A DNA stretch of 37,521 nucleotides from Balneolales bacterium (GTDB taxonomy: Bacteria; Bacteroidota; Rhodothermia; Balneolales; Cyclonatronaceae), in contig SLDG01000085.1 of NCBI GenBank assembly GCA_007125355.1, positions 1 through 37,521 on the forward strand, in the 5' to 3' direction. The notes under the pieces are model-generated. The model was not told the DNA's origin. It saw only the letters and a list, made by a program, of their open reading frames with translations, and made no database searches. The translations under genes were made by a program, and so were the position numbers. Each line of letters begins with the position of its first letter. Position 1 is the first letter of the stretch. Positions 14,341 to 25,810 of the stretch are shown one piece after another.

Positions 14341-15771
14341 ATGAAGGCCTCAACTTATATTACGACATTGCTCATCGGCATTCTGCTTGCGGCGCTGCTA
14401 TCATCCTGCAGAAGCACTTCCGAGAGTTTAAGAGATCCGGCAACTGCTCACATCTATAGAACCGGATATCCCGAGGTACAGGCAAGGGTTGCAGGACACT
14501 TTGACAAAAATAAGAATACCTACATTAAACTCTACTCAGAGTTTTCATTAAATAGCTTAATTTTTGTAACCAGAGATGGAGAATCTGAAGCCAGGTTAAA
14601 AATAAATATCTACATAAGGGATGTGAATGACAGCAATAATCTTGTTAAACGGATAACCGAAGACATATCAACAAGAGATGCGCAAAATATTGAAGCCAAT
14701 GCTCTGCTTTTTGATCGTGAAATGGCCATAGGTGCGGGTGATTACGAGATCAGTTTAATGGTGCAGGATTTAAGCTCTGACAAAACTACCCCCGCAACGC
14801 TGCTTGTGTCAGTTCCTGATCCAAAAGCTGACACACCATCCCTTACAGATATTTCCGTTTCTAACCGAATTGACGGATCAAATTATTTCATCCCCTCAAA
14901 TTTTATAGCTTCAAACGCAGACAGCCTGTCTTTCAATTTTCTGGTCAGTTCAAATTCAGACTCGTTCGATGAGCTTATTGTAACAAAAAGATTTATACGC
15001 ATTAACTCAGATACTGATTTCCCAAGGCCGATTAGTCATTTGAATATACCATCAGGTTCTATTGCTTACAGAGGCATAGATTACAATGACCAAAAGGAGC
15101 TCTACAAAATTGATAACAGCATTGAAGCCCGGAGTGGAATTCATACACTGGAACTCATCCACGAAACTCCGGCTCGTGGAGTCTACAGAATTGAAGCAGT
15201 TATTCATGGAAAACAGAACGATGAAAAAAAGGTAATTGAAAGAAAATTCCGGGATATCATTGTTTTGAGTCCCAATTTTCCGAATATCAGGACTACCAGA
15301 GACATGATTGACCCTTTGTATTACCTCATGGACAGAAGAGAATTTCAGCGGATTAGGGCAATAGAAAATCCTGATTCACTAAGAGCCGCCTTTGAAGCTT
15401 TCTGGTTGTCAAATATTCGCAATCCATCAAGAGCAGCAGAGGTTATAGAGCTGTACTATACAAGAGTAGAAGAAGCTAATCGTGCATTTACTACATTCAG
15501 AGAAGGCTGGATGACGGATATGGGGATGGTTTATATTCTTGTTGGGCCACCGGTTCATATAGAAAATACCATAGACAGTATGATCTGGTATTACGATTAC
15601 AACCGAATGGATGTACGTACTGTATTTAGATTTGAGCGAGCCCGCTACCACGGTGCCTCTTTCCCATTCCACCATTACATTTTAGTAAGACAACGATTCT
15701 ACCATGAAATCGAATTAAATCGAATTCAGGATTGGAGAACCGGACGTATTCTTAGTCGCAGAAGCTTATAA
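14341..15771 (+). CDS. GWxTD domain lipoprotein
   Basis: A 476-residue lipoprotein with a signal peptide and SSC lipobox (Cys23). The C-terminal domain carries the namesake GWMTD at 389-393 inside REGWMTDMGMVYILVGPP, the hallmark of the GWxTD domain family (function unknown, found mostly in Bacteroidota, Acidobacteria and relatives). The middle (about 60-330) looks like beta-sandwich material, with phrases such as YIRDVNDSNN and ELIHETPARGVYRIEAVI. It follows the MurF-type gene by 59 bases on the same strand and converges on the beta-barrel gene with a 27-base gap. No enzymatic residues are obvious. Confidence 0.9.
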   Translation: MKASTYITTLLIGILLAALLSSCRSTSESLRDPATAHIYRTGYPEVQARVAGHFDKNKNTYIKLYSEFSLNSLIFVTRDGESEARLKINIYIRDVNDSNNLVKRITEDISTRDAQNIEANALLFDREMAIGAGDYEISLMVQDLSSDKTTPATLLVSVPDPKADTPSLTDISVSNRIDGSNYFIPSNFIASNADSLSFNFLVSSNSDSFDELIVTKRFIRINSDTDFPRPISHLNIPSGSIAYRGIDYNDQKELYKIDNSIEARSGIHTLELIHETPARGVYRIEAVIHGKQNDEKKVIERKFRDIIVLSPNFPNIRTTRDMIDPLYYLMDRREFQRIRAIENPDSLRAAFEAFWLSNIRNPSRAAEVIELYYTRVEEANRAFTTFREGWMTDMGMVYILVGPPVHIENTIDSMIWYYDYNRMDVRTVFRFERARYHGASFPFHHYILVRQRFYHEIELNRIQDWRTGRILSRRSL

Positions 15772-15798: not shown

Positions 15799-17328
15799 CT
15801 AAAACCTGAAAGTTAGCGCACTCACCCCGGCTGCAATCCACGTGCCGTTATTTTGTGAGTTCCCTACAAACATGACACCTATATTGAAGGAATAGTTATT
15901 TGTGATTATCCCGGATCCGGCTGTCCATGAAGCGGCATTTGCACCGCCGGTATTAAATCCAAATCGAACCGGCCACACATTGGCAACTCTGTATTCGAAA
16001 CCCATGCCAAGAGACATTAGCTTACTGTTAGTGCCTACATTATTGAATCCCGCGCCAAGATCAAGAGCAGCCATCATTTTACCCGCCTGAAGCTGAAAAC
16101 CAATATTCATATGAGCCGGCAGGCTGCCTGTAGTTCTGTCTCTGTCGTCTCTTTTTAAATCAAGATATACCTCTGTACCAATACTGTCCTGTACAACATA
16201 ATTGAAGTAGTCGCTCAGGTTCGAATCAAATTCGTCTCTAAGCCTGTCCTGATCAATGGCAACTCCGCGCCAAACTAATTCACCTGAATTCTGGAAAGTC
16301 GCGGCATCATCAGTGAATGATACTCTGCCGATATCGGTGATAGAAATTCCAAATCGGAAGAATCGTTTGCCATCCCCAAAAAAACCATAATCAAGAAATG
16401 CAGGAGATAACTCCAGTTCAGCTGTAGCACCAAGATCAAATCCCAGGCCAACCGAGTTGACAGAAAAAGCATCATTCGGGGTTTCAAGATAATCTGCCAG
16501 AGAAGGCATCTCATCCATAGTATTTCTGTCAGAGATATACTGATCTAACTGTTGGGATAAGTCACCGGCTGTGTGAATTCGGAAATTGTAATTATGCACA
16601 AGCAGAGAGTCGCCGCTTACGCGCAAATCAGATTCCATTCTGAAGGTGTTAGCATTAAAACCAAGCAATAGCTTTGGTGCCGCACCAACATAAATACGAA
16701 GCGGACGGTCAAAAAGCGGATCAGTTTGGGTATCGAAAACTTTCCGGGCATATCCTAAAGACAGCTCTGTTAGCGAAACTACCTGGGACTTAGCGTTTAC
16801 GCCTCTCGCTTCTTCAAACAATTCGCTGTTGAAACCGCCAATTGCGGCCTCCATTAAACCACGACTTACACCAAATTTGCCGTATGACCGAATTCTGGTG
16901 GCAAAACTAAATGCCTGATTCTCCATTCGATATGAAGCCCCAACGGGTACAAAACTTACATTGAATCCAGCATAGTGCAGTTCCCCCGGATTTGATGAAC
17001 TACCAACCCAGTTATCGAGCATAGATTTTTGGCGTGTGGCATCAAGGAGTTCTCCTGTTGTAAGGTAATCATTATACGTACGGATATCAGCTAAAGGCCC
17101 GCCAATTCCGCCACCTATTTGACCGATTGTCAAAGAAAATTGAGGTGTATAGTCATCTAACATTAAGTTTGCAGGATTGACAAAATTGGCAGAGTGTTCA
17201 CCTATAAACGTTACACCCGTTGCACCCATACCGGTTGAAATGGGATGTTCAAATCTATTTTGAGCTGAAACAATGTTTATTGAACTCAAAATCAGGACTA
17301 AAGCAGTAATAATAATTGTCTTTTTCAT
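15799..17328 (-). CDS. DUF5723-like outer-membrane beta-barrel protein
   Basis: A 509-residue exported protein. The signal peptide (MKKTIIITALVLILSS...VSAQ) is followed by a series of amphipathic strands with Gly and aromatic residues, for example GELHYAGFNVSFVPVGASYR and RFFRFGISITDIG, and the chain ends in LTFRF, a terminal Phe typical of outer-membrane barrels. The opening ISTGMGATGVTFIGEHSANFVNPANL resembles PorV/DUF5723-type barrels of Bacteroidota. DUF5723 is my best family guess, not a certain one. It begins at the base after the stop codon of the large lipoprotein gene, so the two are almost surely translated from one message and may act together at the outer membrane. Confidence 0.8.
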   Translation of the reverse strand: MKKTIIITALVLILSSINIVSAQNRFEHPISTGMGATGVTFIGEHSANFVNPANLMLDDYTPQFSLTIGQIGGGIGGPLADIRTYNDYLTTGELLDATRQKSMLDNWVGSSSNPGELHYAGFNVSFVPVGASYRMENQAFSFATRIRSYGKFGVSRGLMEAAIGGFNSELFEEARGVNAKSQVVSLTELSLGYARKVFDTQTDPLFDRPLRIYVGAAPKLLLGFNANTFRMESDLRVSGDSLLVHNYNFRIHTAGDLSQQLDQYISDRNTMDEMPSLADYLETPNDAFSVNSVGLGFDLGATAELELSPAFLDYGFFGDGKRFFRFGISITDIGRVSFTDDAATFQNSGELVWRGVAIDQDRLRDEFDSNLSDYFNYVVQDSIGTEVYLDLKRDDRDRTTGSLPAHMNIGFQLQAGKMMAALDLGAGFNNVGTNSKLMSLGMGFEYRVANVWPVRFGFNTGGANAASWTAGSGIITNNYSFNIGVMFVGNSQNNGTWIAAGVSALTFRF

Positions 17329-19584
17329 TTAATCCACCTTCAGTCTAATTTTAAAAGTTCCGTTTACCCCGAGTATAAGTGTATCATTAGACCTGATTGA
17401 CACACTTTCGTTTTCTCGAGTGAGTAATTCTCCGCTCAATTTTATCTGCTCGGTTCTGTGTAACTGCCTAAGTTGCTCTTCAGTAAGGCTAATCTGAATG
17501 ACTCCATTCTCAGGTTCTGTTGAGAATCCTGAATTATCTATTGTAGCGGCACTCATACGGATGGTAGCATCTCCGGCTTGTGGTAACCTTGTAATCACAT
17601 TTGATTCTTCATCTAAAAAATCTAAGTCTACATTAATATCAAGTGGGATAAGATTTGTGTAGCTAATGGTTAGCAATGCTTCAGAAATGAATGTGTCGTC
17701 GCCATCCTCCGGTAAATCAGACAAGGAAGCATCGAGCGTGTCGCTGAATGCAACAGGATCGCCATCAACTGTTCGCAGTGAGAACGGAATATGTACATTT
17801 AAACCTGAGTCAATATCAATTGGAGTAATTACCTCCCCTCGATTCCTGTCAGGGTTAACAAGTGCCTTTCCTACAAAATAAATTTCAACAGGCAGATTGC
17901 TTAAAAATTCGGCAATATTACTGTTATCAATATCAAACGTTATTGATTGGGTTGAACCCTGCAGGTCAGCAGCTTCAACATTAATGGCAATCAAATCAGC
18001 GTTACTGATTGGGGCACCTCTGCTCAGCAAACCACTCACAGTATCATTTGGAGCAACAAAGAAAGGTGTTCCCGCAGAACCACGTAGCATCACTTCATTA
18101 CCATCTTCACTAATTCCTACAATTGCAGCGTAAATACGGCTACCGACAGCTACATTTGAGGTGTAATCTAAAGTCAGGGCTGGATTTGTAAGCTGAAGGT
18201 TGGATATTCGCTCCGAAAGGCTTTCAAGATCAGAAACATCACTTTCAATGCGGACATTAGGGTCGAACAAATCAAGATTGTTGTCATCTGCGTCATTTAA
18301 ATTAAACACACGAGGCTCCAAAATCCCGGATGCACCGGCGGTTTCTACAATTTCAAATAATACAGTGCCGGTAACACCCTCTTCAGCTGTAATGGTTCGA
18401 ACCCTGTCTCCTGGGGGAGCATTAGATGTATCCTCGGTAGTACCTTTAACATTTACGGTTATGATGTTATCAGGAGCAAATATCCTGACATTGTTCAGCG
18501 GGATTTCGAAGTTTATACCATTGATGTTGTTGGGATGTGATCCGCGCCTTATTCGGTTATTTCCTTCTCTTATAATGACCAGAGAGTCGGCAGGGTTATA
18601 GACACCCGGAGCAGATTCGGTGATAATGGTTGGAAAAGAAATGACCAACTGATCGATATCAAGATCGATGGTATTCTGGATATTTTGGAAGATTACATTA
18701 GCTTCTTCAAGTTCAACAAAATCATTATCATCTTCGAAAGTAAACTCATCAGCTGAAATTTCAACAATATATGTGTCATTGATAGTTTGTGATTCAAAAA
18801 TTGCCTGTGCATTTATAAATGTAAGCCCACTATTCTCAATATCAGCAACTACCAGACTCCCCGGCTCACTTTTCATATCCTGATCTTGCCAGGTAACATC
18901 TACAACTACACTCAACGGTACCGATAAAATATCGCCATCGTTAAACTCAACCTGATTCACACTAACATCGCCGTGGTCAAAATCATTAATAATGGTCGAT
19001 TCGCTAATTTGATTTCCATCAGATTCAAAATAAAATTCCATCATTTGGATATCAAAGCCCATATTATTCACAAAGGTGAATTCAATTGCCCCACTTTCTA
19101 TCTGAGCCTGAACAAATTCATCTAGATCTATTGAGATTTGTATTCCTGTTGCGGTTGAACCAAAAATAGGTGAGCCTTCCGGGAACAATTCGGGATCAAG
19201 GCCGGTGACACTCTCGAAGTCTGTTTCACCACTACCGCTTAACTCTGGCCTTAAGTCTTCTATAATAGCATCGATTTCAAATTCTTCAACCTCCGGATCA
19301 GGAAGGGCGTTGTCGAAGTTACCGATGTCGAAATCGACTTCTACACCAAGTGTAACAAGGCCATTGGGCTCAACATTGAATAAATCTTCAAAATCTGCTG
19401 AGGTTGTATCTATTATGGCATCATTTTCTCCCAAAAAGATATAGGATATTTCCGAAATTAATGGAAGGCTGTATGTTTGTTCAACCTCAAATGAGGGATC
19501 CTTTGGAGTTTCACAAGCAAAGATGGTAAAAATTAATAGAAAAGATGCAATTGTGTATGTAGTACCTCGTATGAATAATTTCAT
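17329..19584 (-). CDS. Large acidic lipoprotein of unknown function
   Basis: A 751-residue protein I do not recognise. The ATG at 19584 gives MKLFIRGTT..., a hydrophobic core and a lipobox ending IFAC (Cys24); an alternative start at 19614 would add ten unlikely residues. The mature part is rich in Asp, Glu, Asn, Ile and Val, with few basic residues, and reads as successive beta-sandwich-like modules. Two stretches look related: TFVNNMGFDIQMMEFYF (near 170-190) and ISYTNLIPLDINVDLDF (near 640-670), suggesting internal duplication resembling water-stress/LEA2-type folds. No catalytic motif is seen. Its TAA stop is followed at once by the ATG of the beta-barrel gene (TAAATG), so the pair is translationally coupled. 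It could be a surface or periplasmic partner of that barrel. Confidence 0.8.
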   Translation of the reverse strand: MKLFIRGTTYTIASFLLIFTIFACETPKDPSFEVEQTYSLPLISEISYIFLGENDAIIDTTSADFEDLFNVEPNGLVTLGVEVDFDIGNFDNALPDPEVEEFEIDAIIEDLRPELSGSGETDFESVTGLDPELFPEGSPIFGSTATGIQISIDLDEFVQAQIESGAIEFTFVNNMGFDIQMMEFYFESDGNQISESTIINDFDHGDVSVNQVEFNDGDILSVPLSVVVDVTWQDQDMKSEPGSLVVADIENSGLTFINAQAIFESQTINDTYIVEISADEFTFEDDNDFVELEEANVIFQNIQNTIDLDIDQLVISFPTIITESAPGVYNPADSLVIIREGNNRIRRGSHPNNINGINFEIPLNNVRIFAPDNIITVNVKGTTEDTSNAPPGDRVRTITAEEGVTGTVLFEIVETAGASGILEPRVFNLNDADDNNLDLFDPNVRIESDVSDLESLSERISNLQLTNPALTLDYTSNVAVGSRIYAAIVGISEDGNEVMLRGSAGTPFFVAPNDTVSGLLSRGAPISNADLIAINVEAADLQGSTQSITFDIDNSNIAEFLSNLPVEIYFVGKALVNPDRNRGEVITPIDIDSGLNVHIPFSLRTVDGDPVAFSDTLDASLSDLPEDGDDTFISEALLTISYTNLIPLDINVDLDFLDEESNVITRLPQAGDATIRMSAATIDNSGFSTEPENGVIQISLTEEQLRQLHRTEQIKLSGELLTRENESVSIRSNDTLILGVNGTFKIRLKVD

Positions 19585-19784
19585 ATAGTTTTGCTTTAGA
19601 TTAAAATATAGCAACGCCTGTCTTGATAGCGTTTATTGACGCGACTTATTAGTCGTTTACCTAAACCTTTTATCAGGCTGTATAAAAGATGATTCGAACG
19701 ACTTATAGTATCATTATTTACTATTATAATAGATTAAAATAATGAATTAATTACAATATGGCAGGCAATTTATAAAGATTTATT

Positions 19785-19811
19785 AAAGCCTGACATAAAT
19801 CATCAGGCCTT
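19785..19811 (-). terminator. Probable terminator of the GH31 gene
   Basis: On the minus strand AAGGCCTGA and TCAGGCTTT form a 9-bp stem with one G-T wobble and a 9-base loop, followed by AATAAATCTTT. It begins five bases after the GH31 stop codon. The T-tract is weak. Confidence 0.5.
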
Positions 19812-19815
19812 AATC

Positions 19816-24548: not shown

Positions 24549-25196
24549 TCAAAATATCCCCACACGAAAACCAAGTGAAGCATGGAATCCAGATAAATCC
24601 GCGTCGCTTGTGCCCTCAAGATTCACGTTTTGGACGAATCTATAGTGCGCGGCTGTGGTCATTTTCAGCCATCTGGTAATATTCAGGTTCAGAGTTAATC
24701 CCGGTTTTACAACAAAAAATGCGTCTTTGGTTGTTTGAACGGGGATATTTCGATTTTCATAACGGGCATCACCGGAGCCAATCAACACCATAGCGCCAAA
24801 ATGAATCAAATCGTTTGGCCTATGCAAATATTCGAGTTCAAATCCAGAATACTCAACTAAAATCTTTGGCTCAGGAATTGTCAGGTGCGACCAGCTTACA
24901 GGCTCAATATCCGACCGTACATTATAAGAGCCTAAGCCCACATTCAGTGTGTTCAATCTGTCGATATTAATAGCCAATGCTAGCCTGCGGCTTGTAATAT
25001 ATGCGGCATCTCCATGAATATCTGTAACTCCATAATTCCAGTTTCCGAAAAAACCAAATGTGCTTTTTCCTGAAATCAAGGTTTGTGGCTGCCGGTCTTT
25101 GGTAAATGATATTTCGCCTGTATGAAAAGAATGTTGTGCATTTGCTGATACAGCCAATGCAAAAAATGTGATTATAGTAATTACTGTATATCTCAT
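24549..25196 (-). CDS. Small outer-membrane barrel-like protein (paralogue 2)
   Basis: A 215-residue exported protein with a signal peptide (ITIITFFALAVSANAQ). The rest alternates polar and hydrophobic residues, as in transmembrane beta strands, and ends GFRVGIF with a terminal Phe, suggesting a small outer-membrane barrel of perhaps eight strands. It is a clear paralogue of the preceding gene: FELEYLHRPNDLIHFGAMVLIGSG here against LELEYTNRSSDLVHFTATTLIGAG there, and AFFVVKPGLTLNLNIT against AFFVFEPGIHLELNVT. The two genes overlap by four bases (ATGA). Function unknown. Confidence 0.8.
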   Translation of the reverse strand: MRYTVITIITFFALAVSANAQHSFHTGEISFTKDRQPQTLISGKSTFGFFGNWNYGVTDIHGDAAYITSRRLALAINIDRLNTLNVGLGSYNVRSDIEPVSWSHLTIPEPKILVEYSGFELEYLHRPNDLIHFGAMVLIGSGDARYENRNIPVQTTKDAFFVVKPGLTLNLNITRWLKMTTAAHYRFVQNVNLEGTSDADLSGFHASLGFRVGIF

Positions 25197-25810
25197 CTGA
25201 ATGATCCAAATTTAAAGGTTAATACGCCATTTACTCCAGAAAAATCGCTGTCTTTAAAGCCGGCTTTATCAATGCCGCTTGTAAGCCTGTAACTTATACC
25301 GGTACTGATACGGAAAAATGTTGTAACGTTAAGCTCGAGGTGTATTCCAGGTTCGAATACAAAAAATGCATCTCCATCATTGAAAAAAGTATCGTTGTCG
25401 TCTTCCCTTAAAGAAAATCCGCCGGCTCCGATAAGTGTTGTAGCCGTGAAGTGTACCAGGTCACTTGAGCGGTTAGTGTATTCGAGTTCCAATCCCCCAT
25501 AACCAATTGCAGCATAGAGTTGCACATTTGGATTAGCGAGGAAGTCCTGATCAGGAATACGATGTTGAGTGGTAAGGCCATAACCGCCACCGCCGATAGA
25601 AATAGAATGGTTTTTATCAAATCCAATAATCCATCCGCCACGTCCGCCGACCCAAACTCCAAGGTCGCCCTTTACGTCACTGAATTTAACAACCGGGCCA
25701 CCAAACCCACCATGGCTAACATCGCCGGTAATGAGCGTTTGCATAGTTTGGGAATGAGCCGGTGCAACAATAAGTAGTGTTAAAACACAAATAGTAGAAA
25801 TTATCTTCAT
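25193..25810 (-). CDS. Small outer-membrane barrel-like protein (paralogue 1)
   Basis: A 205-residue exported protein with signal peptide MKIISTICVLTLLIVAPAHSQ. It is glycine-rich in the first half (GDVSHGGFGGPVVKFSDV, WVGGRGGWIIG) and has repeated beta-strand pattern to the C-terminus (VNGVLTFKFGSFR). It is the first gene of a two-gene unit with the paralogue at 24549-25196, which it overlaps by four bases. The pair probably arose by tandem duplication. I do not recognise the family; an outer-membrane location is inferred from composition. Confidence 0.8.
   Translation of the reverse strand: MKIISTICVLTLLIVAPAHSQTMQTLITGDVSHGGFGGPVVKFSDVKGDLGVWVGGRGGWIIGFDKNHSISIGGGGYGLTTQHRIPDQDFLANPNVQLYAAIGYGGLELEYTNRSSDLVHFTATTLIGAGGFSLREDDNDTFFNDGDAFFVFEPGIHLELNVTTFFRISTGISYRLTSGIDKAGFKDSDFSGVNGVLTFKFGSFR

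Follow-up and report, generated by a model that had tools for sequence, protein, structure and literature searches.

A stretch of 37,521 nucleotides from a Balneolales bacterium (contig SLDG01000085.1 of assembly GCA_007125355.1, analysed at its full length and called the window below) carries two adjoining genes on its minus strand, one for a 751-residue lipoprotein (LP) and one for a 509-residue protein of the DUF5723 family (the barrel). A first-pass annotation, prepared from the letters alone, had drawn attention to this pair at positions 15799-19584 and had described its junction as a TAAATG coupling. Both points hold, as is evident from the TAA stop codon of the LP gene, which directly abuts the ATG of the barrel gene (Table 1). 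We find that the two genes form a genuine evolutionary unit that has been kept together across much of the Bacteroidota, and that its nearest known arrangement is the BamH-BamG pair of the Bacteroidota BAM complex.

Table 1. Features of the LP-barrel locus, in window coordinates
Feature	Position	Strand	Remark
Large acidic lipoprotein LP, 751 residues from ATG	17329..19584	-	Signal peptide 1-23, lipidated Cys24, both assigned by eye
DUF5723 FadL-family barrel, 509 residues	15799..17328	-	PF18990, E 2.6e-23
LP/barrel junction, TAA then ATG, spacer 0	17326..17331	-	Letters TGGATTAAATGAAAAA
Conserved post-cysteine stretch of LP, residues 24-38, consensus CExPxxPDFT	19471..19515	-	
Variable LP module, residues ~115-263	18796..19242	-	Not found in relatives of 566-567 residues
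LP C-terminal part, residues ~611-751	17332..17754	-	Common to ~180-residue lipoproteins of another family in the phylum
Hairpin of 14 pairs, 4 of them G-C, beyond the GH31 gene that lies upstream	19782..19814	-	Possible terminator

Conservation of the gene order was read from both sides of the pair. When the contigs of named genomes were scanned with a barrel profile (a first scan of these genomes with the barrel alone gave no match), LP lay directly upstream in 45 of 45 named loci, of which 39 are labelled Balneolales, Balneolaceae or one of their genera, four Bacteroidetes, one Rhodothermia and one Chitinophagaceae. The distance between the two open reading frames (ORFs) is -26 to +19 nucleotides in 44 of these loci, taking the first possible start codon as the ORF start. 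At locus L087 (5992-7550) the barrel gene is split into two ORFs by a frameshift or an assembly error, with the first piece 10 nucleotides after LP, and at locus L098 it is cut by the contig end. Approached from the LP side, the barrel gene comes next in all 18 loci read from the 77 genomes that hold LP; the two sets of loci overlap. An operon shared with further genes was also considered and set aside, since the most widespread other neighbour is present in only nine of the 18 loci.

The two genes are likewise inherited together. Of the 128 genomes from the order, 77 carry an LP homologue, as do 53 of the 83 that are at least 90% complete. Both genes are present in 76 of the 128 genomes and neither in 51, some of which are incomplete; none has the barrel only, and the sole genome with LP only has a contig that ends inside the LP gene. 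The corresponding Fisher p value of 3e-35 is overstated because the genomes are related. For these counts the paired barrel was accepted at E <= 1e-80, and a clear gap in score sets it apart from a weaker-scoring DUF5723 paralogue that persists in many genomes lacking the pair. Because LP is absent beside this paralogue in all six loci read, three of them from pair-less genomes, the coupling is specific to the paired barrel. By eye, five of the six paralogue loci (L229-L234) place the gene between UvrD-type helicase-like and Lon protease-like genes, and in the sixth it adjoins only the latter. We also looked for relatives in which the LP and barrel genes lie far apart, and they are not separated in the relatives examined.

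Beyond the order, 106 of the 244 class genomes have a match to the LP profile (including the 77 of the order), and DUF5723 matches 234 of 395 genomes sampled from the phylum, 221 of them above the cut-off. A profile of 46 LP sequences, comprising the window protein and the 45 named ones, was run against 356 ORFs from 40 DUF5723 loci and gave 22 matches at E < 1e-6. Twenty of these lie directly upstream of the barrel, and the other two (L183 and L184) proved adjacent by six-frame search. Thirteen of the 22 belong to the 30 loci from beyond the class, which had been selected solely for their DUF5723 gene.

Wider profiles recover an adjacent LP in 57 of 67 distinct loci (70 were read, with three genomes represented twice). 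The ten loci within the class all have one, although they had been preselected for an LP match and carry little information on the rate of adjacency. Outside the class the count is 47 of 57, from loci chosen by DUF5723 as the 30 best-ranked (27 from a single family) plus 27 hand-picked across families. It divides into 27 of 27 in one family, where the lipoproteins are only ~180 residues long, and 20 of 30 elsewhere. In 22 of the 27 loci of that family the small lipoprotein gene overlaps the barrel gene by 4 nucleotides. Its relatedness to LP was tested by profile comparison, in which the ~180-residue family aligns with LP residues 611-742 at an hhalign probability of 92.6 (E 4.4e-7) and weakly with the N-terminal end, residues 4-42 (probability 44). 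The other phylum LPs match LP over 639 columns (probability 100, E 1.2e-47), a set preselected by the iterated profile that gathered it. The two groups of barrels match each other at a probability of 96.7.

These distributions bear on the alternative that LP and the barrel act separately in the outer membrane and have only an operon in common. The case for contact between the two is genetic, which leaves room for this explanation, but we regard it as quite improbable given the all-or-none co-inheritance in 128 genomes and a gene order that persists in highly diverged families even where the surrounding genes differ. It is highly probable that the products form a two-part outer-membrane complex of some kind.

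The lipoprotein begins with MKLFIRGTTYTIASFLLIFTIFA followed by Cys24, and the lipobox-like IFA immediately before this cysteine is, by eye, typical of a lipoprotein signal, which predicts that the protein is lipidated. It had been described as rich in Asp and Glu, and this is correct: the mature part has a calculated isoelectric point (pI) of 4.05, with 18.5% D+E and 4.3% K+R. Among the 22 window ORFs listed, LP has the lowest K+R fraction (0.044) and the second highest D+E fraction (0.180, behind 0.187 for a 1172-residue ORF). No Pfam family or PDB sequence matches LP at E <= 1, and the single NCBIfam row (E 0.037; 13 bits, with the cut-off at 475) is at chance level. Sequence searches of PDB gave nothing meaningful for either member of the pair.

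Conserved positions of LP are modestly enriched just after the cysteine. Residues C24, P27, P30 and F32 are among the invariant columns of the 46 sequences, and residues 24-61, which make up 38 of the 728 positions, hold 15 of the 152 highly conserved columns (hypergeometric p 0.006 at a conservation threshold of our own choosing). The first residues, CETPKDP, also conform to a rule for surface lipoproteins given in one report, which asks for two or more acidic residues among the six that follow the cysteine (PMC12578637). With E25 and D29 in these positions, LP is a putative surface lipoprotein.

The LP family also varies by module. The segment of residues ~115-263 is absent from relatives of 566-567 residues, and relatives of 1056-1096 residues (L054, L055, L058, L061, L064, L071, L072, L075 and L097) carry ~300 extra residues. 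Several of these long forms were matched twice by query residues ~100-320, and their two halves align at a probability of 65 in profile comparison. Self-comparison of 11 long forms found no match, and a module profile likewise did not confirm a second copy; a diverged second copy of the module in the long forms is hinted at by these alignments. The first-pass annotation had also proposed that LP itself contains modules resembling each other near residues 180 and 650, and this was not upheld: self-comparison of the 46-sequence profile found no match, and in BLASTP the two regions match at no more than 15 bits. A forced profile comparison of residues 115-262 with 561-751 had its best alignment at 158-189 with 629-659, the sites named in the annotation, but with a probability of 4 over ~31 columns, so the two sites may share at most a short motif.

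Structure prediction gave a more informative view of LP. Its AlphaFold2 (AF2) model is all-beta (pLDDT 87.4, pTM 0.64) and matches PDB entry 4h3w with a Z score of 19.2 and a root-mean-square deviation (rmsd) of 4.3 over 295 of 313 residues, far ahead of the next match, PNGase F at Z 9.4. Foldseek likewise returns 4h3w at E 4.4e-10 with a TM-score of 0.55 by target length. In its model, LP thus has the 4h3w fold. This entry is a DUF4621 protein, BDI_1231 of Parabacteroides distasonis, which is about half the size of LP, and LP itself falls below the gathering cut-off of DUF4621 (PF15414), with no Pfam match at E <= 1. Gene order leads to the same family. In genome G504 a DUF4621 gene (E 6.5e-102; 4h3w match at 5.2e-99) lies 30 nucleotides directly upstream of a DUF5723 gene, and this DUF4621 gene is recovered by the iterated LP profile in the set of 356 ORFs (E 9.5e-5), though no longer in a larger six-frame set at 1e-4. 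Two independent lines, fold search and gene order, thus converge on DUF4621, the second of them coming from one genome; DUF4621 is above its cut-off in one of the 395 phylum-sample genomes.

Because the alignments with 4h3w and PNGase F span residues 35 to 749 of the LP model, and the ~180-residue lipoproteins match both ends, we infer that the LP core may be built from the two ends of the protein with modules inserted between them. The range of LP lengths, 566 to 1096 residues, fits such an architecture. The earlier statement that LP belongs to no known family is correct as regards Pfam, and needs amending as regards the resemblance of its model to a DUF4621 protein. No known unrelated family was found for LP when we looked for one by Pfam, NCBIfam and fold.

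The barrel had been called DUF5723-like, and its match to PF18990 (E 2.6e-23, 83.8 bits against a gathering cut-off of 26.8) places it squarely in that family. DUF5723 is its only Pfam match at E <= 1, and at this threshold Pfam shows no TonB-dependent, SusD or Slam domain in the pair. The AF2 model (pLDDT 86, pTM 0.82) assigns the barrel to the FadL superfamily, with Z scores of 22.7-27.4 to FadL, TodX, TbuX and CymD at rmsd 3.8-6.2 over 303-340 residues. TodX leads (27.4), followed by TbuX (26.8), chain 8gl6_F (25.7), FadL (~25) and the BamG chains (19.9-20.6), and Foldseek also lists TodX first (E 5.9e-9, TM-score 0.45 by query length). Its fold is thus closest to channels for hydrocarbons and fatty acids. 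The barrel shares with the FadL, TodX and TbuX channels this fold (Z ~23-27) and an N-terminal hatch region with an NPA motif, which is invariant. It is paired with a lipoprotein, whereas those channels are not known to have a lipoprotein partner, and none of its fold matches exceeds 18% identity.

The match to 8gl6_F, which we take to be PorV, raises the idea that the barrel is a PorV-like accessory of type 9 secretion that receives or holds a surface protein. Apart from this chain, the barrel has a weak match to the PorV_fam/PorQ model NF033709 (25.7 bits, below the NCBIfam cut-off of 90). However, the type 9 translocon protein SprA is found in 127 of the 128 genomes of the order (125 above the cut-off) and the pair in 76, which means that SprA is kept without the pair, and LP has a lipid-anchor signal of its own; a type 9 role is accordingly the least probable of the functions weighed here. 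We do not use co-occurrence as a link to this system, since SprA is near-universal and the comparison shows only that it is retained where the pair is missing. Elsewhere in the same genome (contig C256, L035:942-4579), a gene for a secreted repeat protein stands with two genes for small barrels that by eye resemble PorV/PorQ, one of them above the DUF5723 cut-off.

A closer parallel is offered by BamH and BamG. According to two reports, BamG is a FadL-family barrel that holds the surface lipoprotein BamH through its extracellular parts, and the lipidated N-terminus of BamH packs against BamG (PMC12611786, PMC12578637). The same sources describe an extended N-terminal tail of BamG that reaches BamA (PMC12611786) and a conserved peptide after the lipidated cysteine of BamH (PMC12578637). 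The source genome of the window has a separate BamG, which narrowly misses the cut-off of NF053685 (240 bits against 250) and matches PDB chain 9n2d_B at E 5.6e-17. On contig C94 of this genome (L034:9306-11986), a lipoprotein gene directly precedes BamG with a 4-nucleotide overlap and is probably BamH, a name given by position only; the protein matches nothing in PDB, nor Pfam or NCBIfam at E <= 0.1. DUF4270 (PF14092), checked as a family for BamH or LP, has no match in the source genome. BamG matches were present in 59 of 59 genomes sampled, seven of them above the curated cut-off and a few only as fragments, and in the order all 30 distinct loci examined among these 59 genomes show the lipoprotein-BamG tandem (31 rows, two of which are the same locus).

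The LP-barrel pair resembles BamH-BamG in that a lipoprotein gene directly precedes the gene of a FadL-family barrel and a conserved peptide follows the lipidated cysteine. The two differ in that the pair coexists with BamG, has a barrel tail ~19 residues shorter and is lacking in 51 of the 128 genomes. With cleavage sites set by a crude rule, the tail preceding the NPA motif has a median of 28 residues in 44 DUF5723 sequences (four of which give values of 52-62; the window barrel runs from Q23 to N51) versus 47 in 29 BamG sequences, with one of the 30 left out for want of an NPA motif. The extended BamG tail is thus missing from the DUF5723 barrel, which also scores only 15.3 bits against NF053685, an equivalog model with a cut-off of 250. 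We therefore place the pair, on this comparison, as plausibly BamGH-like in architecture and distinct from BamGH itself. As a candidate for BamH proper, LP lacks profile support (hhalign probability 12-18); no BamH chain appears among the 50 LP fold matches listed, a result that excludes nothing.

The likeness could extend to function, in which case the barrel would bind an Omp85 protein (BamA, TamA or TamL) and LP would form part of an extracellular canopy that helps to fold surface proteins. The gene order and spacing, similar to those of BamH-like/BamG in the 30 loci, are compatible with this, as are two FadL-like barrels and a post-cysteine peptide in LP like that reported for BamH (PMC12578637). 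Yet BamG is matched elsewhere in all 59 sampled genomes and in the source genome, and the barrel lacks the long tail by which BamG is described as touching BamA (PMC12611786). The pair is moreover dispensable, since 51 of the 128 genomes do without it and 30 of the 83 that are at least 90% complete have no LP, and profile comparison yields no significant relation of LP to the BamH named by position (probability 12-18) and no clear one of the barrel to BamG (probability 33-42 over 26-53 columns, not significant). We consider a BamGH-like function unlikely, albeit the strongest of the alternatives.

Other precedents were also weighed. The analogy drawn in the first-pass annotation to SusC/D, Por and Slam systems needs amending: by Pfam family and fold this barrel is of the FadL family and not a SusC or Slam channel, and BamH-BamG is the better precedent. 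A Slam-like variant, in which the barrel is a dedicated exporter that brings its own lipoprotein to the surface, would account for the strict one-to-one coupling. A structural complex explains that coupling equally well, Pfam shows only DUF5723 in the barrel, and FadL barrels, whose lumen is plugged, are not known to export proteins; such an exporter seems to us rather improbable. In Flavobacterium johnsoniae, the lipoprotein gene Fjoh_4940 adjoins the FadL homologue Fjoh_4941, a likeness to our pair by gene type. One study reports that both products rise on TamL depletion in one comparison, with a functional link suggested by its authors, and that Fjoh_4941 fell to 0.4 in another (PMC12045153). 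Our literature searches, which covered open-licence PMC papers, found no description of the LP-DUF5723 pair. What is known is the pairing of a lipoprotein with a FadL barrel as such; what is new is its DUF5723-LP version, which is not a new kind of system.

The reading we favour, to which we give about an even chance, is that of a lipoprotein-capped FadL-type channel. The DUF5723 protein would form a beta-barrel of the FadL family whose N-terminal hatch region bears the invariant NPA motif. The lipoprotein would be exported to the cell surface, where the conserved peptide just after its lipid anchor would dock on the barrel. Its beta-sandwich core, composed of an N-terminal strand and the C-terminal part, would cap the extracellular side, and inserted modules of varying size would reach outward. 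Most likely, LP would in such an assembly catch a small ligand, hydrophobic or amphipathic, that then passes through the barrel, a role suggested by the fold alone. Gene coupling, co-inheritance, both predicted folds and the range across the phylum are computed results. Contact between LP and barrel is suggested by the genetic evidence and by the modest enrichment of conserved columns after the lipid anchor, and the proposed lipidation and surface exposure, together with the direction and nature of the substrate, should be taken as predictions. The proposal of an undescribed two-part complex thus fares well insofar as the genes stay together in relatives, while we infer rather than observe the complex itself.

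Several observations weigh against a capped channel. FadL-family barrels also serve without transport. The Foldseek TM-scores of the barrel are modest (0.45 by query length at best) with BamG chains ranking fourth to sixth, and the type 9 chain 8gl6_F (Z 25.7) and BamG (~20) are strong fold matches as well. Only E25 and D29 bring LP within the surface-lipoprotein rule, and just barely, and the rule is itself weak. Neighbouring genes beyond the pair, none of which is found in more than nine of the 18 loci, give no hint of a substrate. The profiles behind the 47 of 57 adjacent LPs outside the class (the iterated LP and ~180-residue profiles) were trained partly on upstream ORFs, a circularity from which the counts made with the 46-sequence profile are free. 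LP was not recognised in ten of the 57 loci, of which one has DUF4621, two have a long unrecognised ORF on the same strand directly upstream and seven have no such gene; for three of the ten (L165, L166 and L189) the barrel was missed by the profiles and its Pfam position was used.

Signals for transcription of the pair are faint. If the hairpin upstream (Table 1) acts as a terminator, LP and the barrel could constitute a two-gene unit of their own, a possibility weakened by the finding that terminator-like sites number three, against a mean of 3.5 in shuffled sequences, and show no excess. Upstream of LP, the promoter search found a single weak -7-like match at 19610 with no -33 partner, and a sigma-70-like scan scored no better than shuffles. 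A gene for a GWxTD-domain lipoprotein (PF20094, window 14341-15771) is convergent with the barrel gene. Farther away, at window 24549-25810, two small overlapping genes encode secreted-looking products of 215 and 205 residues, possibly a second small envelope pair.

A bolder view is that, next to BAM and the type 9 translocon, the pair gives the Bacteroidota a third outer-membrane machine of general use, BamGH-like in design, which either attaches to an Omp85 protein or transports lipid or lipoprotein, and which ranges from ~180-residue forms in one family to ~1100-residue forms in Balneolales. We regard this as improbable. Our results nevertheless bring together two families without an assigned function, of which DUF4621 has an orphan crystal structure, in a single likely complex that is found again and again in much of the Bacteroidota. 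The pair is a directly testable two-gene target, including its small ~180-residue lipoprotein forms. These findings suggest that BAM is not special in pairing a surface lipoprotein with a barrel of the FadL family, and that such pairs are a general outer-membrane building plan of this phylum.

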